This document shows positions 1 to 19,187 of a stretch of DNA of 26,340 nt, piece after piece. This stretch comes from a virus. The position numbers and the translations under genes are program-made. The stretch spans positions 1 through 26,340 of IMG/VR virus record IMGVR_UViG_3300042555_001266; one strand, written 5' to 3'. The notes under the pieces are model-generated. The model saw only the letters and a list, made by a program, of their open reading frames with translations. It made no database searches and was not told the origin of the DNA. The first letter of the stretch is position 1, and every line of letters starts with the position of its first letter.

Positions 1-327
1 AGAGAATCAGCGTTAGACAGAATAAACGTAAGAAGATTGTTATTACAAGCTCGTAAATTGATTTCAGCGGTTTCAGTGAGATTGTTGTTTGAACAAAACG
101 ACCAAAAAGTAAGACAAGATTTCTTAAATGCGGTTAACCCTATCTTAGATTCAATTAGAAGAGACAGAGGTTTATACGATTTCCGAGTTACTGTATCGTC
201 AGACACTGCTGATTTAGATAGAAATCAAATGACAGGTAAGATTTTCATCAAACCAACTAAATCATTAGAGTTCATTGATATCACATTCTACATTACACCG
301 ACAGGAGCATCGTTTGAAAACATATAA
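1..327 (+). CDS. Tail sheath protein gp18, C-terminal part (5' end outside window)
   Basis: The reading frame is open from the first base and ends at a TAA at 325-327, giving the last 108 residues of a longer protein. It begins ALDRINVRRLL, and later shows FDFRV-like (YDFRVTV) and DRNQMTGKIFIKP segments. These match the conserved C-terminal domain of T4-type contractile sheath proteins, where the sheath packs on the inner tube and neighbouring subunits exchange arms. The sheath polymerises round the gp19 tube and contracts to drive it into the host. T4 gp18 is about 660 residues, so most of the gene lies upstream. A strong terminator follows, and the tube gene lies about 1.2 kb downstream, which fits a T4-like tail module. 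Family assignment is confident; the missing N-terminus cannot be assessed. Confidence 0.93.
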   Translation, partial: RESALDRINVRRLLLQARKLISAVSVRLLFEQNDQKVRQDFLNAVNPILDSIRRDRGLYDFRVTVSSDTADLDRNQMTGKIFIKPTKSLEFIDITFYITPTGASFENI

Positions 328-343
328 CAAACAACTCTATAAT

Positions 344-373
344 AAAAAGGGAGACTAGTTCTCCCTTTTTTTT
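344..373 (+). terminator. Rho-independent terminator after the sheath gene
   Basis: Bases 344-354 (A5-GGGAGA) pair with 360-370 (TCTCCC-T5) around a five-base loop, and the T run continues to 373. It lies 17 bases after the sheath stop codon and ends just before a TATTTATA box and the next gene, so it separates two transcription units. Confidence 0.9.
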
Positions 374-382
374 ATAACATAA

Positions 383-390
383 TATTTATA
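383..390 (+). promoter_or_regulatory. TATTTATA box upstream of the HAD-like gene (putative phage promoter element)
   Basis: TATTTATA sits between the terminator at 344-373 and the ATG at 394, only three bases before the start codon. The same octamer recurs before several other transcription units in this window. If it is a -10-type element, the transcript would be leaderless or nearly so. Role inferred from recurrence and position. Confidence 0.4.
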
Positions 391-393
391 GGT

Positions 394-1350
394 ATGAGTA
401 ATAGAAATTTAATTAAAAAAATATTAAAAGAGGTTGCCGAAGAAAGAAATTTAAGATTATATGCTTTAGATTGGGATGATAATATTTTAGGAATGCCAAC
501 TAAAATTTATCTTAAAGATGAAGAGGGTAACTCTGTTGGTATGCCAACGGACCATTTTGCGGAATATAGACATTTAATAGGTAAAGAACCTTTTGAATAT
601 GAAGGGTCAACTATATTAGGTTTTGATGAAGACCCGTTTAGAGATTTTACACATCCAGAAACGTTTTTAAGGGACACTATTAAAGCGGTTAAAAATAATA
701 GATTTTCCCCAAGTTTTGAGAAATTCAAAGAAACATTAATTTATGCAAATCCATTTTCAATTATCACGGCAAGAGGTCATAGTCCAAAGGTAATTAAAAA
801 AGGTGTTAAATTATTTATCAACATCGCATTAACACCGGAAGAAAAACAAGAAATGATTAGTAACATCAAAGACGTTTTGGACTTCGAAGAAATTGGAGGT
901 TACTATAAAACAGGTGATTTAGACGATTCTCAATTGATTGACGTGTATTTAGATGAAAAAGGTGATTACTACCCTGTATCATCAAAAGAATTCGGTCAGA
1001 GGTTTAAATTGGATTCAAGTAAAGGAGCGTCTAGTCCGGAACATAATAAGAAATTAGCATTATCAGACTTTTTAGACCAAGTATATTATAAAGTAGGTCG
1101 ATTAATTGATAGTGGTAAATATGGTTCGGTTTCATTAGGATTTTCAGATGACGACATAAGTAATGTTAGGAGTATGGTTCAACACATAGAAGATGAACTT
1201 TCAAGAGTTTATCCTGAAATACATTTTGTTGTGAAAGATACTTCTGAAGGTGGAATGAAAAAAATAGTTATAACTAGACTTAACAATGAGGCAGACTCTG
1301 AGTCTTTACTAGAAAATTATATGATTAATAAAATATTAAGCTATTTATAA
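394..1350 (+). CDS. HAD-superfamily hydrolase-like protein in the tail module
   Basis: This 318-residue protein carries HAD-fold hallmarks. Motif I is LYALDWDDNI near residues 22-31, with D26 as candidate nucleophile and D28 as general acid/base. Motif II is SIITARG with T125. An acidic motif IV is GFSDDD, with D252-D254. A lysine for motif III is probably one of the pair in HNKKLALSDF, ahead of motif IV. HAD enzymes are usually phosphatases or nucleotidases; the substrate cannot be read from the sequence. The long stretch between motifs I and II (about 95 residues) may hold a cap. The protein lies between sheath and tube genes as its own transcription unit. The ATG at 394 leaves motif I complete, and the next in-frame ATG would remove it. 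There is no Shine-Dalgarno sequence. Fold confidence is good; function (nucleotide metabolism, host modification or tail role) is unknown. Confidence 0.75.
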   Translation: MSNRNLIKKILKEVAEERNLRLYALDWDDNILGMPTKIYLKDEEGNSVGMPTDHFAEYRHLIGKEPFEYEGSTILGFDEDPFRDFTHPETFLRDTIKAVKNNRFSPSFEKFKETLIYANPFSIITARGHSPKVIKKGVKLFINIALTPEEKQEMISNIKDVLDFEEIGGYYKTGDLDDSQLIDVYLDEKGDYYPVSSKEFGQRFKLDSSKGASSPEHNKKLALSDFLDQVYYKVGRLIDSGKYGSVSLGFSDDDISNVRSMVQHIEDELSRVYPEIHFVVKDTSEGGMKKIVITRLNNEADSESLLENYMINKILSYL

Positions 1351-1381
1351 TAAATTAATATATTAAAATAATTAACTAGAA

Positions 1382-1389
1382 TATTTATA
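1382..1389 (+). promoter_or_regulatory. TATTTATA box, distal copy upstream of gp19
   Basis: TATTTATA lies in the 146-bp gap between the HAD-like gene and the tube gene, with short ACTAGA repeats on either side (ACTAGAAT, ACTAGATT, ACTAGAAT between about 1374 and 1407). It may be a second or upstream promoter element. The surrounding DNA is almost entirely A/T, so chance is a real alternative. Confidence 0.25.
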
Positions 1390-1452
1390 ACTAGATTACT
1401 AGAATTATAAAAAAAATAAAAATAAAAGTCAATAGAAAAATATTTCAAAGAC

Positions 1453-1460
1453 TATTTATA
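1453..1460 (+). promoter_or_regulatory. TATTTATA box upstream of the tail tube gene
   Basis: The octamer TATTTATA ends 36 bases before the ATG at 1497 and would give a leader rich in A and free of G runs. It fits the series of boxes before structural genes here. The tube is among the most abundantly made tail proteins, so a dedicated promoter is expected. Confidence 0.4.
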
Positions 1461-1496
1461 TACAAAAATAAACATAAAAATTAAAAATAAGATAAG

Positions 1497-1985
1497 ATGG
1501 CTGATTTATTAATGAAAATGCCGATACCATATGAACCTAAAAGACAAAACAGGTTTATTTTACGTTTCCCTTCAACATTAGGAATTAACGAATGGTTTGT
1601 GGAAAGTACGGCTAGACCTAAATTAACTATTGGAGCAACTGAGATTCAATTCTTAAATACTTCAACTTGGGTTGCGGGTCGTTTTAACTGGGGTGATATA
1701 AATGTTAAATTTAGAGACCCAATCGGACCTTCGGCATCACAAGCGTTAATGGAATGGGTTCGTTTATGTGCGGAATCAGTAACAGGACGTATGGGTTATG
1801 CTGCAGGTTATAAGAAAAATATCGACTTAGAACTTTTGGACCCAACAGGTGTTGTTGTTGAGAAATGGATTTTAGAAGGTGCTTGGTTATCAAGTGTTGA
1901 CTTTGGTTCGTTAGGTTATAGTACTGATGGTATTGCTGAGATTAATGCAACATTGAGACCTGACCGTTGTATATTAGTGTACTAA
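1497..1985 (+). CDS. Tail tube protein gp19
   Basis: The protein has 162 residues, almost the same as T4 gp19 (163). It opens with a short tail followed by KRQNRFILRFP, and continues with WFVESTARPKL, NTSTWVAGRFNWGDI and a C-terminal EINATLRPDRCILVY. These features are typical of T4-type gp19 tube subunits, which stack as hexameric rings inside the sheath and form the channel for DNA. The ATG at 1497 gives the family length; there is no Shine-Dalgarno sequence and the leader is A-rich. A terminator follows at 2009-2041. In related phages the tail-assembly and tape-measure genes come next; here a methyltransferase gene intervenes. Assignment is confident. Confidence 0.95.
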   Translation: MADLLMKMPIPYEPKRQNRFILRFPSTLGINEWFVESTARPKLTIGATEIQFLNTSTWVAGRFNWGDINVKFRDPIGPSASQALMEWVRLCAESVTGRMGYAAGYKKNIDLELLDPTGVVVEKWILEGAWLSSVDFGSLGYSTDGIAEINATLRPDRCILVY

Positions 1986-2008
1986 TTAAATTATTCAAAT
2001 ATAATTTC

Positions 2009-2041
2009 AATCCACGTAACTTGGTTTGCGTGGATTTTTTT
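2009..2041 (+). terminator. Rho-independent terminator after gp19
   Basis: AATCCACG (2009-2016) pairs with CGTGGATT (2029-2036) around a 12-base loop, and the T run extends to 2041. It lies 23 bases after the tube stop codon. An identical hairpin ends the methyltransferase unit at 2759-2791. Confidence 0.9.
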
Positions 2042-2048
2042 GTTATAT

Positions 2049-2056
2049 ACTTTATA
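2049..2056 (+). promoter_or_regulatory. ACTTTATA box in the left repeat (variant of the TATTTATA box)
   Basis: ACTTTATA, followed by TAAA, lies directly behind the gp19 terminator and 39 bases before the methyltransferase ATG. It shares the TTTATA core with the boxes before other units, and the same variant is kept in the right repeat at 2799-2806. A promoter role is inferred from the terminator-box-leader order. Confidence 0.35.
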
Positions 2057-2095
2057 TAAAAAAAAAGTAAATTATATTAAAAAAAAAGATATAAT

Positions 2096-2722
2096 ATGGA
2101 AATGAGAAACTTACATGATTTAATCATACGGGACCAATATGATGGTGGTGGACGTTGTGATGACACTAAAGGGATTGTTATTAAAAACCTAATCATTGAA
2201 ACTAATGCTCAATTATGTGTTGAAATTGGTGTTTTAAAAGGAGCTTCGTTAATGTACTTTGCAGAAGCATTAGAAATCACTAAAGGTAAAGTAATTGGTA
2301 TTGACCCATATTCAATGGAAACATTATATAATGAAATACCCGATAAAGAAATACAAAAATATACTTATGAGGTTTTATTTAACGAGCAAATTGTATTAGA
2401 CAATTTGTATAATGGTTTGTCAAAAGTTATAAGTGAAAATAATTTAGAAAACACAATATCATTGGTTAGAAGTAAATCAGAAGATTACTATACCAATATA
2501 GAAAAAGAATCTATTGATATTCTTCATATTGACGGGAATCACGACGAAGAATTTGTAACTAAAGATATCCAATTTTACTTACCTTTAGTTAAGAAAGGTG
2601 GTTATATTATTATGGATGATACTACATGGCCGGGAGTAATTAATTCAATTAACAATCATTTAAATAATCAAACAGTTCTAATTAATTCGTATAACGAATA
2701 TTCGGTTCACAAAAAAATTTAA
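2096..2722 (+). CDS. Class I SAM-dependent methyltransferase-like protein (Methyltransf_24 type), probable inserted cargo gene
   Basis: The 208-residue product has the layout of small class I methyltransferases. The SAM-binding motif I is VEIGVLKG (42-49), an acidic residue closes the second strand in VIGIDPYS (D70), LHIDGNHDEE lies at 143-152, and KKGGYIIMDD at 166-175. The IDGxHxxE and GGyiimDD pattern is typical of Methyltransf_24-like enzymes, many of which methylate sugars or other small molecules; the substrate here is unknown. The gene stands alone inside the tail module, between tube and tail-assembly genes, bracketed by 114-bp direct repeats that give it its own terminator and leader. 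Its first three codons (Met-Glu-Met) belong to the repeat and are shared with the next gene. This suggests acquisition as a moron-like cassette, perhaps for host-surface or virion modification. Confidence 0.75.
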   Translation: MEMRNLHDLIIRDQYDGGGRCDDTKGIVIKNLIIETNAQLCVEIGVLKGASLMYFAEALEITKGKVIGIDPYSMETLYNEIPDKEIQKYTYEVLFNEQIVLDNLYNGLSKVISENNLENTISLVRSKSEDYYTNIEKESIDILHIDGNHDEEFVTKDIQFYLPLVKKGGYIIMDDTTWPGVINSINNHLNNQTVLINSYNEYSVHKKI

Positions 2723-2758
2723 AATAATTAATACATTTAGTTATTCAAATATAATTTC

Positions 2759-2791
2759 AATCCACGTAACTTGGTTTGCGTGGATTTTTTT
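2759..2791 (+). terminator. Rho-independent terminator after the methyltransferase gene
   Basis: Same hairpin as at 2009-2041: an 8-bp stem built on TCCACG/CGTGGA, a 12-base loop and a T7 run. It lies 36 bases after the methyltransferase stop codon. Confidence 0.9.
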
Positions 2792-2798
2792 GTTTTAT

Positions 2799-2806
2799 AC
2801 TTTATA
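2799..2806 (+). promoter_or_regulatory. ACTTTATA box in the right repeat
   Basis: Identical to the left-repeat box at 2049-2056 and 39 bases before the ATG at 2846. It is unchanged although the neighbouring leader bases have drifted between the copies, which mildly supports function. Confidence 0.35.
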
Positions 2807-2845
2807 TAAAAAGTATGTGAATTATATTTAAAAAAAAGACATAAT

Positions 2846-3604
2846 ATGGAAATGGATGAAAATACTTTAAAGGCAGCGACCGAAGGTTTAACTTTACCAC
2901 ACGACGTTATTAAATTACCAACACAAGGTATTTTTTATAAGTCAAAAAAATCATCATTAAAAGTTGGTTATTTGACGGCTAGTGACGAAAACTATTTAAT
3001 GAGTAATGATAATAAAGAAAATATTGTAATTTCATTATTAAGAAATAAAATATATGAACACGATTTAAGACCTGAAGAACTTATTGAAAGTGATGTTGAA
3101 TCTGTTTTAATATTTTTACGAAATTCATCTTTCGGACCTGAATATAAACTTAATTTGGTTGACCCTAAAACAAATAAATTGTTTGAGCATACTGAGATTA
3201 TTGATACTTTGGCTTTAAAAGAATGTGAATTAAAACCAGATGAAAATGGTACATTTAGTACTGTCTTACCAAAATCAAATGTTGAGGTTAAATTAAGACC
3301 GATAACTTTTTATGAATCAGTTGAGTTGGATAAGTTATCTGAAAAATATCCAAAAGGGGTTACTGCACCAATTATTACACATCGTTTAATGAAAGAGATT
3401 GTTTCTATTGAAGGAAACTCTGACCTTGGAAACATATCTCAATTTGTTACTACACTACCTATTATGGATTCAAAACATATTAGAAAAATATTAAGAGAAA
3501 ATGTTCCTCAATTGGATTTAAAAAGACAAGTATACGCCCCGTCAGGAGAATTGGTTACATTTAATGTATCCTTTGGGGTGGACTTTTTTCGCCCTTTCTT
3601 CTGA
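2846..3604 (+). CDS. gp26/gp51-type baseplate hub assembly protein, likely tail assembly chaperone (frame-0 product)
   Basis: The frame-0 product is 252 residues. Its N-terminal part has a LPTQGIFY motif (LPSxGxxY type) followed by a KVGYLTASDENYL segment, and it ends GVDFFRPFF. The same start motif and DFF-type end occur in T4-type gp26/gp51-family baseplate hub assembly proteins (Pfam T4_baseplate), about 200-260 residues long. The gene lies directly upstream of the tape measure, the place where long-tailed phages encode tail assembly chaperones that keep the tape measure soluble. The last codons overlap a +1-frame ORF, and the sequence at the overlap looks slippery (see 3575-3592). The start lies in the duplicated leader; MEM codons are shared with the methyltransferase gene, so the ancestral start could be the second ATG. 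Family assignment is moderate to good; the chaperone role is inferred from position. Confidence 0.75.
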   Translation: MEMDENTLKAATEGLTLPHDVIKLPTQGIFYKSKKSSLKVGYLTASDENYLMSNDNKENIVISLLRNKIYEHDLRPEELIESDVESVLIFLRNSSFGPEYKLNLVDPKTNKLFEHTEIIDTLALKECELKPDENGTFSTVLPKSNVEVKLRPITFYESVELDKLSEKYPKGVTAPIITHRLMKEIVSIEGNSDLGNISQFVTTLPIMDSKHIRKILRENVPQLDLKRQVYAPSGELVTFNVSFGVDFFRPFF

Positions 3605-3746
3605 TTATGGAAAACATTTAATAGAGGAATATTATTTAATGTCAAAAATATTAAGGACACAATATTCCGAATTCCTGAAAATCCCTACTTACATACGAAA
3701 ATATATCATAGATAGAATAATTGAAGATAATACACCAAAGACTTAA
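3564..3746 (+). CDS. Short +1-frame ORF overlapping the gp26-like gene; probable C-terminal extension made by frameshifting
   Basis: The +1 frame is open from 3522 to the TAA at 3744-3746. An ATG at 3564 would give 60 residues and another at 3639 would give 35; neither has a Shine-Dalgarno sequence and the first lies deep in the upstream gene. A compact helical stretch runs from ALSSDYGKHLIEEYY to PTYIRKYIIDRI, beginning upstream of the 3639 ATG, so that start would cut it. A +1 shift at the TTTTTT run (3584-3589) joins GVDFF (residues 244-248 of the upstream product) to ALSSDYGKH, giving a fusion of about 299 residues. This resembles the G/GT pair of lambda-like phages. Independent translation from 3564 or 3639, or a sequencing slip in the T run, are the alternatives. 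No enzymatic function is suggested. Confidence 0.6.
   Translation: MYPLGWTFFALSSDYGKHLIEEYYLMSKILRTQYSEFLKIPTYIRKYIIDRIIEDNTPKT
3575..3592 (+). promoter_or_regulatory. Putative +1 programmed frameshift site
   Basis: In the frame of the gp26-like gene the bases read GG GTG GAC TTT TTT CGC. A Phe-tRNA on TTT (3587-3589) can move forward one base onto TTC, its better match, while the A site waits at CGC, a rarely used arginine codon here. GGGGTG at 3575-3580 can pair with the 3' end of 16S rRNA three bases ahead of TTT, like the stimulator in bacterial prfB (RF2). The zero-frame stop TGA follows at 3602. Inferred, not shown. Confidence 0.5.
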
Positions 3747-3770
3747 ATTACGTCTTTGGTGTATTTATTT
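3729..3770 (+). terminator. Terminator-like hairpin at the end of the chaperone unit
   Basis: Bases 3729-3742 (AATACACCAAAGAC) pair perfectly with 3752-3765 around a nine-base loop that contains the TAA stop codon of the short ORF. The following TATTTATTT is U-rich but not a pure T run. Its tail merges with the TATTTATA box for the tape measure gene. Confidence 0.75.
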
Positions 3771-3773
3771 ATA
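3766..3773 (+). promoter_or_regulatory. TATTTATA box upstream of the tape measure gene
   Basis: TATTTATA begins right at the foot of the preceding hairpin and ends 13 bases before the ATG at 3787. It repeats the terminator-then-box arrangement seen at 344-390. Confidence 0.4.
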
Positions 3774-3786
3774 AAACATATTAATT

Positions 3787-5691
3787 ATGGAAGATGAAGA
3801 ATCAGTAGGCGGTATGGCTGAAGGATTGGCCGGTAAAAGTAAAAAAGTACAAGAAATTTTAGATAGTAATACCAAAATTGGGAGTATTATGAAAGAAGTT
3901 ACTGCGGCGGAAGAATCTTATTCTAAACTCGCGAAACAAATGGGTGTCGGTCGTGAATCGGCTGAGGGGATAAAACGTGCGATGACTGATGCGTATTCTG
4001 AGGTTGCTAAGTTAGGTGGTAGTGCTGAGAGTATTGAAGAAATGCACAAAGGACTCATTGAAGCGACAGGTAGGAACATATTATTAGCGACTGATTATCA
4101 AGACGATTTATTCGCAGCTGCTGAAGTTGCAGGTCAAAGTACTTCAACTTTAACAAAGGCGTTTGTTGATGCGGGTTACAGTGTGTATAACATTGGTGAA
4201 GAAATGAATGGTGTTTTTAACACTGCTCGTGAGATGGGTGTGAGTTTATCAAAAGTTACCGAACAAGTTTTATCAAATATGGGAAAACTTGATGACTATA
4301 ATTTCCAAGGTGGTGTTGAAGGTTTAGCAAAAATGGCGGCAACCACTGCGACTTTACGTGTTGATATGGGTACGATAATGGGTGTTGTTGAAAAAGCATT
4401 TGACCCTGAAGGTGCTATTAAAATGGCGTCAGCATTCCAAAGATTAGGAGTTACCCAAAGTGAATTGTTAGACCCACTTAAATTGATGAATATGTCAATG
4501 AATGACCCTGAACAATTTGCTAAGTCACTTGGTGAAATGGGTAAATCTTTGACTGAGTTAGACGCTAAAGGTAATGTTAGAATTGCACCTGGTAGTATTC
4601 GAAAAATGAGACAATTGGCTCAGGAAATGGGTATTTCAACAGGAGAGTTATCTAAAATGTCTAAAGCAGCGAAAGAGGCTGAGATTAAAATGCAGAAAAT
4701 TCAATTCCCAAGTGATTTAGGAATTTCTGAAGAACAAAAACAATTATTAACTAATGTTTCACAACTAAAAGATGGTGAAGTGAAAATTAATGTTAATGGT
4801 CAAATGCAAGACTTAAATAAAGTTCTTCAGGATATTGGTGGTGATAAAAACAAATTAAATGAATTACTTGAAGCCAATACACCAAAGACTACTGAAGAGT
4901 TGTTAAGAGAGTCAAATACTTATGAAAAAGAACAACTTAATGCTTTAAACGCATTAAGAGGTAAAACAGGTAAAGCTATTGCTTCAAGTAGTACAACAGG
5001 TAAATTTTTAGAAGCTGAAAATCAATTAGTTTTGGGTGTTGCAAATACATTCGATAAGGCGTTAAATATATCGAGTATCAGAAAAGGATTTGATGATAAT
5101 GTTGGTGGTATAAGTACAGCTTTAGCTAAATTAGCAACAGGTGAAGGTTCTATGACTGATGTTGCAAACGCATTTAAGGACGCTGCCACAAAAACTGGTG
5201 AAGGTCTTACTAAAGTATATGATGATGTTAAAAAATTTGGTACTGAAGAGACTGAAAAAATTATGGGTGGTAAAAATGAGTACGCTAAAGCGGTTGTTAC
5301 CATTTTAGATAAATTTGTAGAGTACGCAGGTAAAGTTGAAAAAGTTGATGTTGATTTAATTGATAATAAAAAAAAAGAAACCATAAAAGAAATTTCCGAA
5401 CCGACATTAACTAAAATAAATCCCACAACGTCAACTGATGTTTTAAAAGACGTTTCTATTGGTTCAGGTATTAGTCAACAACAGTTAGAGAAAATATTGG
5501 ATGTTGAAAGTAAGACTAATAACATTAACGGTGAAATAACTCTTAAATTAGATGTTAATGCACCTCCAGGTATGGATGTTAAACAATTAGAAATTATGTT
5601 AAAAGACCCTAAAGTTCGTACTGCGGTTATAAATGCGATACACGCGGCTAAAACTAATGACGGTGCTAAAGGATATATGGGAAGAAAATAA
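3787..5691 (+). CDS. Tape measure-like protein (gp29 position)
   Basis: The product is 634 residues, close to T4 gp29 (590). It is overwhelmingly helical and low in aromatic residues and cysteine, with long amphipathic stretches such as TAAEESYSKLAKQMG and SIEEMHKGLIEATG, and repeated Met/Ala/Gly-rich helices. The middle (about residues 130-320) holds MGVSLSKVTEQVL and similar segments resembling phage tail tape measure proteins. It follows the tube gene and the chaperone-like pair and precedes the baseplate/tail-cap genes, the standard place for the protein that sets tail length and fills the tube lumen. The ATG at 3787 follows a terminator and a TATTTATA box. No hydrophobic membrane segment or lytic domain stands out. 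Sequence similarity to gp29 itself is not obvious to me, so the call rests on composition, size and order. Confidence 0.75.
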   Translation: MEDEESVGGMAEGLAGKSKKVQEILDSNTKIGSIMKEVTAAEESYSKLAKQMGVGRESAEGIKRAMTDAYSEVAKLGGSAESIEEMHKGLIEATGRNILLATDYQDDLFAAAEVAGQSTSTLTKAFVDAGYSVYNIGEEMNGVFNTAREMGVSLSKVTEQVLSNMGKLDDYNFQGGVEGLAKMAATTATLRVDMGTIMGVVEKAFDPEGAIKMASAFQRLGVTQSELLDPLKLMNMSMNDPEQFAKSLGEMGKSLTELDAKGNVRIAPGSIRKMRQLAQEMGISTGELSKMSKAAKEAEIKMQKIQFPSDLGISEEQKQLLTNVSQLKDGEVKINVNGQMQDLNKVLQDIGGDKNKLNELLEANTPKTTEELLRESNTYEKEQLNALNALRGKTGKAIASSSTTGKFLEAENQLVLGVANTFDKALNISSIRKGFDDNVGGISTALAKLATGEGSMTDVANAFKDAATKTGEGLTKVYDDVKKFGTEETEKIMGGKNEYAKAVVTILDKFVEYAGKVEKVDVDLIDNKKKETIKEISEPTLTKINPTTSTDVLKDVSIGSGISQQQLEKILDVESKTNNINGEITLKLDVNAPPGMDVKQLEIMLKDPKVRTAVINAIHAAKTNDGAKGYMGRK

Positions 5692-5700
5692 AAAACATTC

Positions 5701-5708
5701 TATTTATA
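5701..5708 (+). promoter_or_regulatory. TATTTATA box upstream of the 1696-residue baseplate gene
   Basis: TATTTATA followed by ATATAAAAG lies in the 35-bp gap after the tape measure gene and ends 18 bases before the ATG at 5727. No terminator precedes it, so the tape measure transcript probably reads through. Confidence 0.4.
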
Positions 5709-5726
5709 ATATAAAAGAAATAAGTA

Positions 5727-8700
5727 ATGCCGAATAGTACACTATCATTTGCTTCATCTTCATCATTTAGAGATGCGTTAATGGCTAAAAATTTAGCCAC
5801 ATACAGTGTGACAGGTGTGTATACACCACCTGCAGGTCCACTAAATTATGAAATTATTTTGAATCAATCAGCAGTGGTTGATTCCCCTAATGATTTAATT
5901 GCTAATGACCCATTCGCTGATAAATTATATACTTTAAATCAATTTGGGCCTGATGGTGGTTTTGATAAGACTATTGGTTTTAACGGACCATTGTTACCTA
6001 TTATTCCAAATCAAGGACCTTACGCTCCACTTCAAAGTACTGTGTTAAGTAGTGGTGGTTTATATTTAAATATTTTACCAACATCACCATTAATACAAAA
6101 CAAATTTATACCACTTACAGGGAATTATCAATATGTTATAAATGTTAATGACATACAAAATAATAATAAATTATTTTTACCATATGTTTTAGATAATACA
6201 GTAACACCAGCAACTTACATAGCGTCATTATATTCACCGTATGAAATATTAATATCTACTGACCCAACAGGTAGTGATGGTAAATTATCTAATGATTCTT
6301 ACTTAGCCAGAATTGGTGCTAAACAATTAAACTTCTTATTTCAAGAAAGAGTTAATTTTGAAATTTATCAGAATACTGTTGGTGCGGTTAATTTACAATC
6401 ATTATCAGACCCATTTGAGGCGAGTTTATTGGCTTCAGGTAAAGAACCTTTAATTTATCGTAATTGGAGAATTACAGTTCCTGAATCACCTGTGACAGCA
6501 GCCTTTGATTTTGCTACAAGATTGTCAGGTGCTTATTGGCCTGTTTCTTTTATACCTGGTGATTATTTTGATGAAAATACTAGTGGAGGTCTTCAAACTC
6601 AACAAACCTCAAACGCGTTAAATGTTATTAATCAATTAACGGGGGGGTTTTTAGGTCCGATATTAAATATTAAAAGAAATCCTTCACAAATATTTTTAGC
6701 AAACACAGGTAACGGTCAAAGGTCGGTATTGTTTAACAATATTGATTTAAATAGATATCAACCGGGTTATAAAAAAGACTTTGGTGGTATATTAGGTATT
6801 GCACAAGCGATAGTTAATTTAGCTGCGAGTCTAATTAATGATAATGGTACGTTATCGGGAGGTTACTATGTTGGTAGTGTTAATTCAGAACCTAGTACTA
6901 TAACATCACCTTCAGATGCAATACCTGTCAATCCTTATGGGGAACAAGTTGAAAGTCCTGTTTATGGGCCTTCAGAGTTAGGTATATTGTTTGAAGGTAA
7001 TCAAAATGATTTAAATTTTGGGTTTGCGGGTAAATCATTAACTGATGGGGGTGGTATTGATGGTGGTTTAGTTTGGGTTTCCCCAAAATACAAATCAAAC
7101 GCAGGGTTCAAAGCGACACCGGGTGGTGGTTCAGGTTCTAAAGACGAACAATTCAATGAGATATCAAGTAACTTTCAAAAAGCCGAATCATCAGCGATTG
7201 ATTTCAAGGAGAATTCAATATTAGACAATACTCAAAGATTAATTGATTCTGCGGATAACGTGTCAGGTGTCAACAGATTAAAACACGTTGGTAATGCGAT
7301 GAATCAAGTGAGTAAAGTCTTTAATGATGGTTATAAAGAAATGACAAAAGGTTCAATGGTGTTGTCATATAAAGATAACACTGATGGTTCTCAACAAGGT
7401 ATGGAGTATTGTCGCGTATTTACAAAAGACACTCCATATTACACTTACGCGGATTTACAAAAAACTGATGGTATAACAACATCGGGAAGACGTTTCACAT
7501 ATTCAGTATTAGATAATACATATAATCTTAATATTGCACCATTAAAAGGTGTTGATTCAACAAACATCATACCTGATGATGCTAGTGGTAAGGGAGGTCA
7601 CGTTAAAAAATATATGTTCTCGATTGAGAACTTAGCTTGGAGAACATCAAGTAAACCTGGTTTAACTTATGATGATTTACCTGTTTGTGAAAGAGGGCCA
7701 AATGGGGGTAGAGTTATGTGGTTCCCACCGTATAGTTTACAATTTAATGACACTAGTCAGGCGGATTGGGGACAAGCGGTTTTCTTAGGTAGACCTGAAC
7801 CAATTTATACGTATAAAAGTACAAGTAGAACGGGTTCGTTAAGTTGGAAAATAATTGTAGACCACCCGTCTGTTATGAATACAGTTGTTGAAAAACAATT
7901 AAAAGGTGCGTCTAAAGAACGAATTGAATCTATTATTGATTCATTTTTTGCTGGATGTGTTAAATACGATATCTATGAACTAGCTATTAAATTTAATACT
8001 TTAAGTGTTAGTGATTTGTATACCTATCAAGAAATTTTAAGTAATCCTCGATTAACAGATGTTGAAACAGTATCTCAAATAAATAAAGAAATACCAAAAT
8101 TACCGTCTGATAACTCAGGAACTGCGGGGGCTGATGTTAGTACTAATAATCAACAATCTCAAACTGAACCCGATAGTTCAATTAAAGATTTTGAAAATAA
8201 TTATTTGGATTTTGCGTTTTATTTTGAAAACGACATACCTGGTAAAAATCCGGATACGACAACATCTGAAGAATACGAGTCAATTTATAATACGTATGTT
8301 AGTTCGACAAATATTGAAAAATATAAAAAAAATGCTGAGAGTGTATTTAAATCAGATGATGTAAACATTCACGTTGGTGGGTTTTTTGATAGTGTAGTTA
8401 AAGGTAACTTTAATAAAATTGCTGGTGGTGATAAAAACTTTATTACTGATGCTTATGATATTTTATCAAAAGGATTGGGTACTATAAGTATTACGATGGA
8501 AGGTTCTGCGTCAGCTAAGGCATCACCTAGTTATAATAAAAAACTATCCGATAGACGTATTGATACAGTTAAAAAGTTTTTAAAAAGTAAAATTATTGGG
8601 ACAAAAAGTTTAGGTGAATTTTTTGATAAGAACTTGATTACGATAGTTAATGAAACGGGTAAAGGTGAAGAAATTGTTATCCCTAAAACAAATGTTGAAA

Positions 8701-18500: not shown

Positions 18501-19187
18501 ATGAGCGTAGATAAAAAAATATTAGAAGAGATTACACGATTTAATTCGATTAATAGATATATTAACGAACAAGAATTACCTCCACCACCTGTGGAAGACC
18601 CATTAGCGGCGGCACCACCTGCGGACCCATTAGCGGCAGGAGCACCACCTGCGGACCCATTAGCGGCAGGAGCACCACCAGCACCCGCAGCACCAACAGG
18701 TGATGTACCTCAACCTGTAGATATTGAAAATGACCCTGATGTTGAAAAAGTTGGTGACGATGAAAAAAGTGATAATAAAAAAGAATTAGACGTTACTGAA
18801 TTAGTTAATAGTCAAAAGAATGTTGAGGAAAAACAAGAAGAGTACTTCCAACAATTATTTTCTCACTTAGAAAATTTGGAAAGTAAATTAGGTGAGATGG
18901 ATAATATCGTTAATCAATTAAATAGTTTAGAGGCTAAAGTTGAAAAATATAGACAAAAATCACCTGAAGAAAAAATGGAACTTAGAACTTTAGATTCTGG
19001 ACCATTTAATCAAAAATTATCTCAATATTTTGAAGATAAAGAAGAGGATTTTGAAAAATTAGGTAGAGATGAATATATCTTAACTAAAGATGATGTTGAA
19101 GATTTTTCACCTAAAGAAATACAAAAAACATTTAGTGATTTTACCGGTGACGGTGAAGAGGATAATGTTTTTAAAACAAAATACTAA
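18501..19187 (+). CDS. Acidic coiled-coil protein with Pro/Ala repeat near the N-terminus
   Basis: The 228-residue protein starts with a short helix (about 1-24, SVDKKILEEITRFNSINRY). A low-complexity segment with two full ADPLAAGAPP copies and a shorter first copy follows (about 30-75). Then comes an acidic stretch (ENDPDVEKVGDDEKSD), and a long helical, probably coiled-coil region (about 95-155) with heptad-like LENLESKLGEMDNIVNQLN. The C-terminal third is acidic and ends in DGEEDNVFKTKY. It is translationally coupled to the preceding small gene and followed by a strong terminator. I do not recognise a family. Such flexible Pro/Ala linkers plus coiled coils occur in scaffold or virion structural proteins, so a structural or assembly role is the best guess. 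Confidence 0.6.
   Translation: MSVDKKILEEITRFNSINRYINEQELPPPPVEDPLAAAPPADPLAAGAPPADPLAAGAPPAPAAPTGDVPQPVDIENDPDVEKVGDDEKSDNKKELDVTELVNSQKNVEEKQEEYFQQLFSHLENLESKLGEMDNIVNQLNSLEAKVEKYRQKSPEEKMELRTLDSGPFNQKLSQYFEDKEEDFEKLGRDEYILTKDDVEDFSPKEIQKTFSDFTGDGEEDNVFKTKY
18594..18680 (+). repeat. In-frame tandem repeat, about 30-bp unit, coding ADPLAAGAPP
   Basis: Units lie at 18594-18620 (27 bases, lacking one Gly codon), 18621-18650 and 18651-18680. The last two differ only at the final base. The region is much richer in G and C than its surroundings. Recent slippage or unequal recombination is likely. Confidence 0.9.

Follow-up and report, generated by a model that had tools for sequence, protein, structure and literature searches.

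Introduction

Several described systems place extra genes between conserved genes of tailed phages. Promoter early stem loops (PeSL) belong to T4-type phages; the comparison made with them here draws partly on PMC4503421. Morons are short ORF insertions flanked by a promoter and a terminator, and moron-like cases are uncommon among the extra ORFs of T4-like phages, according to PMC1524935. In T4 and its relatives intergenic sites are taken by free-standing endonucleases, and repair brings co-conversion (PMC2988022); boundaries of exchange between phages carry nuclease genes (PMC10448857). The addition of a gene to the tightly packed structural modules of T4-type phages without breakage is rarely visible stepwise.

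The stretch of DNA analysed, termed here the window, is a virus record of 26,340 bases from an uncultivated T4-type phage that is found letter for letter inside the 173,656-base IMG/VR record G001, at 96501. Its tail module has a predicted methyltransferase gene between gp19- and gp26-like genes, bracketed by two copies of the intergenic sequence. This arrangement probably arose when a gene was gained recently, almost to the exact codon, at a junction that repeatedly accepts inserts in this phage family. At this one junction the empty and the filled state can be compared, along with a likely source cluster, other cargo and apparent deletion scars, which makes the process testable. A narrow literature search on duplicated intergenic regions around T4-like gene insertions returned little; no absence from print is claimed.

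Organization of the locus

All features of the locus are on the plus strand. The left neighbour (1497-1985) is a gp19-like tail tube gene matching PHROG 4542 (tail tube, E 1.6e-26), with 24.3 bits to Pfam Phage_T4_gp19, below the 28.2 cutoff. The upstream intergenic copy (1985-2104), whose nearest sequence is the single copy of the related record L005, is now the leader of the methyltransferase gene (2096-2722). The latter codes for a 208-aa protein of the Methyltransf_24 type, assigned by homologue comparison and by a profile match of 73 bits against a curated cutoff of 26.3. A 12-base spacer (2723-2734), in which a few bases past the methyltransferase stop resemble L096, leads to the downstream copy (2735-2854). 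This is the leader of the gp26-like gene (2846-3604), identified by Pfam T4_baseplate (30.4 bits, cutoff 24.5) and PHROG 150 (baseplate hub, E 3e-9). A moron would be expected to differ in composition from the genome that received it; here GC content is 27.9% in the methyltransferase (2102-2722), 37.4% in gp19 and 29.6% in gp26, and 26-36% in the 1-kb bins of the window.

Other features of the window are recorded here in their own right. The sheath-tube interval (394-1350) holds a 318-aa ORF with no Pfam or PHROG match at E 0.1, which shows 91-100% identity in near relatives and about 29-39% in distant ones. Tandem 30-bp repeats at 18585-18701 code for protein repeats of the APPADPLAAG type. 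The end of gp26 (3575-3604) carries TTTTTTCG in 138 of 143 records, and the +1 frame past the gp26 stop is open for 43-54 codons in all 140 records that are not cut by a contig end. A conserved +1 programmed frameshift is possible at this position, and the ORF at 3564-3746 may be an extension of gp26 comparable to the frameshift extension of tail assembly chaperones. There is no ATG near the overlap in 104 of the 143 records; one is present in the other 39, including the window (ATG at 3564), so the +1 ORF may alternatively have a start of its own.

Extent and reality of the repeat

The direct repeat is 120 nt long (1985-2104 and 2735-2854), with 111/120 identical positions (92.5%) and a start-to-start distance of 750. 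The sequence-only reading of this DNA had delimited 114-bp copies (1991-2104 and 2741-2854) at that spacing; their 107/114 matching positions were confirmed, within the longer true extent. Identity falls to background level immediately outside both repeat edges. Self-BLAST in the 173,656-base contig gives the pair an E of 2.7e-43, far above chance, and no other direct-repeat pair of that contig combines 40 or more noncoding bases per copy with a spacing below 6 kb.

A 120-nt repeat in metagenome contigs calls to mind an assembly artefact, a candidate that was rejected and to which we give practically no chance: both copies are spanned by three IMG/VR records besides the window, and they differ from each other at 9 sites. 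Two of the spanning records (3300042334_001448 and 3300042314_001187) are 100% identical to the window over the 7,601 bases compared; the former includes the entire window without a single difference and so may not be an independent observation. The third, 3300042900_000584 (L090), has one mismatch in 5,429 bases around the repeat, with a second mismatch and a small indel far off, near 15.5 kb.

This phage is not alone in having duplicated intergenic sequence, since intergenic direct repeats with 40 or more noncoding bases are present in further contigs of the group: several in G007, one pair in G006 and five pairs in G012, most of these promoter-like and one by a tRNA-like end. None was found in G011 or G013. 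Six other junctions scanned for direct repeats yielded short weak pairs only.

The gp19-gp26 junction in related phages

Viral contigs were scanned with gp26 (best 80 of at least 577 matches) and gp19 (best 80 of at least 598). Together with the window and a single locus found by a pattern scan, the two scans yielded 162 sequences. Both genes are present in 155 of these; in the fetched stretch gp26 is missing from 6 and gp19 from 1. Subtraction of five second views of contigs already included left 150 distinct records, whose junctions were classed by similarity at E 0.01. Among the matches listed, the junction measures at most 130 nt in 102/150 records and holds the methyltransferase in 3/150, namely the window, L003 and L004. 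The others carry a putative endonuclease of 525-528 aa (5 records) or 296-302 aa (6), a partial match to the larger of these (22), a match to a small zinc-finger-type ORF (9, counting L150, so classed though no ORF of at least 28 aa is listed for it) or another sequence (3). L038, L065 and L066 are classed as empty; by eye they look like remnants of the 65-68-aa ORF described below. As the records are those most similar to the queries and many are near-identical to one another, these counts are not frequencies of events.

The nearest relatives among the matches listed, L005-L008 (gp26 97-98%), have a junction with a single intergenic copy, 111-112 nt long, and without the methyltransferase. 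The more distant L009-L015 likewise have one copy, of 105-114 nt, and lack the gene at this position. Among the matches listed, 3/150 junctions contain a direct repeat of 40 nt or more, and these are exactly the three methyltransferase records. The proposal that gene plus regulatory copy form a self-contained insert between the tube and gp26-like genes is supported, and the empty relatives that it called for as a check exist. The idea that the repeat is an imported cassette was abandoned: it is the native gp19-gp26 intergenic sequence, present once in near relatives, and the contig has no scattered full copies.

The absence of the methyltransferase from the junction of outgroups indicates that the gene was gained in this lineage, and the near identity of all carriers points to one event. 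The opposite polarity, an ancestral methyltransferase lost in relatives by recombination between the repeats, would yield precisely the empty junction observed. It is disfavoured by these outgroups, by the 147 other records of the 150 (among the matches listed) without the gene at the junction and by the position of the homologues in another cluster, and we regard it as extremely improbable. The suggestion that recombination between the copies would restore the empty junction is sound as geometry, but the outgroups speak for a gain and no excision was seen. No intermediate or deletion occurs in any record, and a DNA search of isolate phages gave no match.

Origin of the two copies and of the gp26 5' tract

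The two copies differ in their affinities. The upstream copy is closest to L005, with 117/123 identical aligned columns; for the downstream copy the values are 111/123 to L005, 113/122 to L008 and 110/120 to the upstream copy. In the tree the downstream copy is nearest to L008 (bootstrap 31) and not to the upstream copy, and a tree with the two copies forced as sisters is rejected (AU p=0.012, SH p=0.038); the alignment comprises about 120 nt and the bootstraps, 82 and 31, are modest and weak. Faster change in one copy could mimic a separate origin.

The divergence extends into gp26. Compared with L005, the gene has 17 differences in its first 150 nt (2846-2995) and 12 in the other 609 (Fisher p=2.8e-6, for a 150-nt limit picked after inspecting the data); L005 and L008 differ at 7 positions in the same 150 nt. 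L104 and L008, with 19 and 15 differences there, are not the source of this tract, and none was found among the sampled relatives. The pattern suggests that a foreign tract came along on the right side of the insert by recombination between two phages.

Alternatively, the intergenic region may have been duplicated in tandem within this lineage, the methyltransferase entering between the two copies then or later. This is simple and would explain why copies of 92.5% identity bracket the gene exactly; we consider it rather unlikely, as the rejection of sisterhood and the closer relationship of the upstream copy to L005 than to the downstream copy speak against it, and a duplication without the gene occurs in none of the 150 records among the matches listed.

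Source of the methyltransferase gene

A scan with the methyltransferase returned 11 loci. Four carry the arrangement of the window, one of them (L099) ending inside the gene. The other seven, L092-L098, are 71-79% identical, and gp19 and gp26 are absent from their fetched stretch. The protein match begins at window residue 3 in L092-L097; in L098 it runs from residue 1, yet the ORF starts at the equivalent of residue 3. Nucleotide similarity in the homologues aligned (L092, L096, L097, L098) extends from the third-codon ATG (2102) to within a few bases of the stop. Because homology begins at this shared ATG, the ORF appears joined to the gp26 start region almost codon-exactly, the left join consisting of the gp26 leader and ATGGAA followed by the methyltransferase's own ATG.

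The contigs G011, G012 and G013, which hold L092, L096 and L098, have largely ordered orthologues in common with G001. A DegT-type aminotransferase gene adjoins the homologues, and genes for a glycosyltransferase, a hexapeptide transferase or an epimerase lie nearby. The DegT gene of G001 is 89% identical to that of G012, but a different gene comes next and this methyltransferase does not lie beside it; the sole close copy in G001 is that of the tail module. This indicates that the ORF reached the tail module by relocation or by capture from a relative. On these sequence comparisons its likely source is a glycan-type cluster of related phages, and both the polarity of the change, a gain, and the source of the gene are well supported. 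The gene is present in 2/10 related records searched whole (G001 and G002), several of the 10 being fragments. No gp19 was found in the six homologue-bearing contigs (0/6), whose gp19-gp26 junction lies outside the sampled sequence. The main block syntenic with the 173-kb contig stops before the tail genes in G012 (about 87.7 kb) and G013 (about 82 kb) and starts after them in G011 (about 115.8 kb).

Against L092, L096 and L098 dN is 0.12, 0.12 and 0.17, and dS, near or beyond saturation, 1.5, 1.1 and 0.7. With dN well below dS, the protein was kept functional over the divergence compared, most of which may predate the insertion.

Another Methyltransf_24 gene, with a tandem 676-bp duplication (87.6%), is found in the glycan-type cluster of the same contig (L191:7250-8606, equivalent to G001:47250-48606).

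Control signals within each copy

Each copy is made up of a terminator, AT-rich boxes and an A-rich leader, with ATGGAAATG at its end; the terminator, box, leader and Met-Glu-Met start attributed to both copies by the sequence-only reading are all there. Hairpin and folding-energy analysis finds the same 11-bp-stem terminator in both (-13.7 kcal/mol, z about -4.1), an intrinsic-terminator-like hairpin with a T run at 2009-2041 in copy 1 and at 2759-2791 in copy 2. Copy 1 contains the CTTTATATA box (2050-2058), a candidate promoter element proposed from the sequence, and the GTAAATTATATT block (2067-2078), a better conserved candidate in the alignment of copies. The CTTTATATA box is present as had been noted, but only its TTTA is invariant in 14 aligned copies.

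A non-sigma70 promoter in the repeat is possible. TATTTATA lies upstream of 4/23 late versus 14/70 other genes of the 173-kb contig, an enrichment that is weak and not specific. Each copy has one sigma70-like site with a 9-of-12 match (2051-2078 and 2801-2828); over positions 1-6000 such sites number 24, fewer than the shuffle mean of 31.2. Bacteroidota have no Shine-Dalgarno sequences and use upstream adenines instead (PMC6847099). The gp19 protein has weak matches to Flavobacterium phages (35.5%) and matches a Microcystis phage best (43.6%); any host assignment is tentative.

The duplication of a terminator and a promoter-like sequence around a dispensable gene recalls the shuffling of PeSL-type regulatory cassettes in T4-type phages, the parallel drawn initially for this locus, and each copy does carry one TANNTTTG on the reverse strand. 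In the gene direction neither copy has TANNTTTG and no early promoter was recognised, though one of an unfamiliar type may be present; the module is one of structural genes, and the sequence is the native junction of near relatives. PeSL occur in many copies in plastic regions, whereas the 173-kb contig has two full copies, both at this locus, and otherwise two weak 27-base matches. The parallel was therefore not upheld, and such shuffling is very unlikely here.

Repeated promoter-like segments with TTTG and TATCTTTG elements lie between small genes at G012:58699-62213. They appear closer to what PeSL would be in a Bacteroidota phage.

Other inserts at the junction

Different cargo is found in relatives at the same junction, as had been anticipated. 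The junction is an insertion hot spot: an intact putative endonuclease occupies it in 11/150 records and part-related sequence in 22/150 (among the matches listed). The terms endonuclease and homing are applied to these inserts provisionally, from domain hints, position and patchy distribution. For the larger protein (L016, L119) the DUF7487 match exceeds its cutoff, and those to restriction-endonuclease-like families stay below theirs; the smaller one matches DUF559 above cutoff in L118 and below it in L072, and C2H2 zinc fingers weakly. Vsr matches are below cutoff in the inserts examined (L016, L119, L118, L072). L131 and L051 have the appearance of scars left by internal deletion; of an L171-like insert, L131 retains 122 nt at the left end (98%) and 111 nt at the right (97%). 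In 16 records the junction carries a 65-68-aa ORF similar to the N-terminus of the large protein (hhalign probability 93.6, E 2.2e-7), of which it may be either a remnant or a relative.

In endonuclease-like inserts the start codon falls within the 3' arm of a terminator-like hairpin, which also contains an ATATTTAT box (L172:3134-3163, L016:744-787, L118:4027-4060, L119:2470-2511). A parallel is known from mobE and segF, which have terminators within their 5' end (PMC2988022).

These inserts bring forward a more specific form of the preferred explanation, which we hold possible though doubtful. A free-standing homing endonuclease would cleave within or close to gp19-gp26, and repair of the double-strand break with DNA of a co-infecting phage would import the methyltransferase with a co-conversion tract, the gene riding on, or having replaced, a resident endonuclease. 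The occupancy of the junction by intact and partial inserts and the two insert ends left in L131 agree with this, as does the conversion-like tract that abuts the insert, co-conversion being a known outcome of homing (PMC2988022). Yet the junction of the window holds nothing endonuclease-related at E <0.1 (best E 0.11), and L005-L008 belong to the empty class; none of the 8 distinct endonuclease inserts (from 11 records) shows intergenic duplication, and their two ends are no more alike than shuffles. No cleavage site is known, and the endonuclease activity is itself putative. Unlikely in our estimate is the further proposal that the junction is a homing-endonuclease target whose repair captures cargo together with a duplicate control region. 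Because the cassette supplies expression signals and alters the junction and the gp26 start, it could then protect the phage as a plug against further invasion.

Proposed route of gene gain

For the preferred reading, a gene gain at this junction, we infer the following route. Two co-infecting phages would have recombined, with the left break at the gp26 start codons and the right break just past the gp19 stop, positions that lead to duplication of the whole intergenic region around the captured ORF. The downstream copy and about 150 nt of gp26 would stem from a different allele, like a conversion tract. This overlap would render the insert harmless: gp19 would retain its terminator and gp26 its own set of signals, and the new gene would be supplied with an A-rich translation start as well as a promoter region and a terminator. 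The methyltransferase and gp26 thus each seem to have a complete switch, and expression of the former would give the structural module one more transcription unit. The copies could recombine and so remove the methyltransferase, but no such deletion was seen. As the locus suggests, an insertion can become neutral at once if a complete intergenic control unit is duplicated with it.

Comparison with known systems

The locus resembles PeSL in that a terminator, here a stem-loop, and a promoter-like sequence are duplicated beside a movable gene. It differs from them by its situation in a structural module, at one place only and with no recognised early promoter. With seg and mob genes and HEG-islands (PMC2988022 and PMC10448857) it shares an intergenic site between conserved genes and a possible co-conversion tract, whereas its cargo is a Methyltransf_24 protein, not a nuclease, and the intergenic region is duplicated. 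The enzyme matches in family the Methyltransf_24 and rhamnosyl O-methyltransferase-type enzymes of phage glycan-type clusters, where its 71-79% identical homologues are found; it differs from them in being a single gene within a tail module. As in lambdoid morons, a single extra ORF, here with putative control signals of its own, stands between genes that are adjacent in relatives. The differences from those are that the signals duplicate the junction of the recipient, that related phages hold the nearest homologues and that this is a T4-type phage. With terminators present and a promoter candidate in each leader, the insert of the window would work like a moron.
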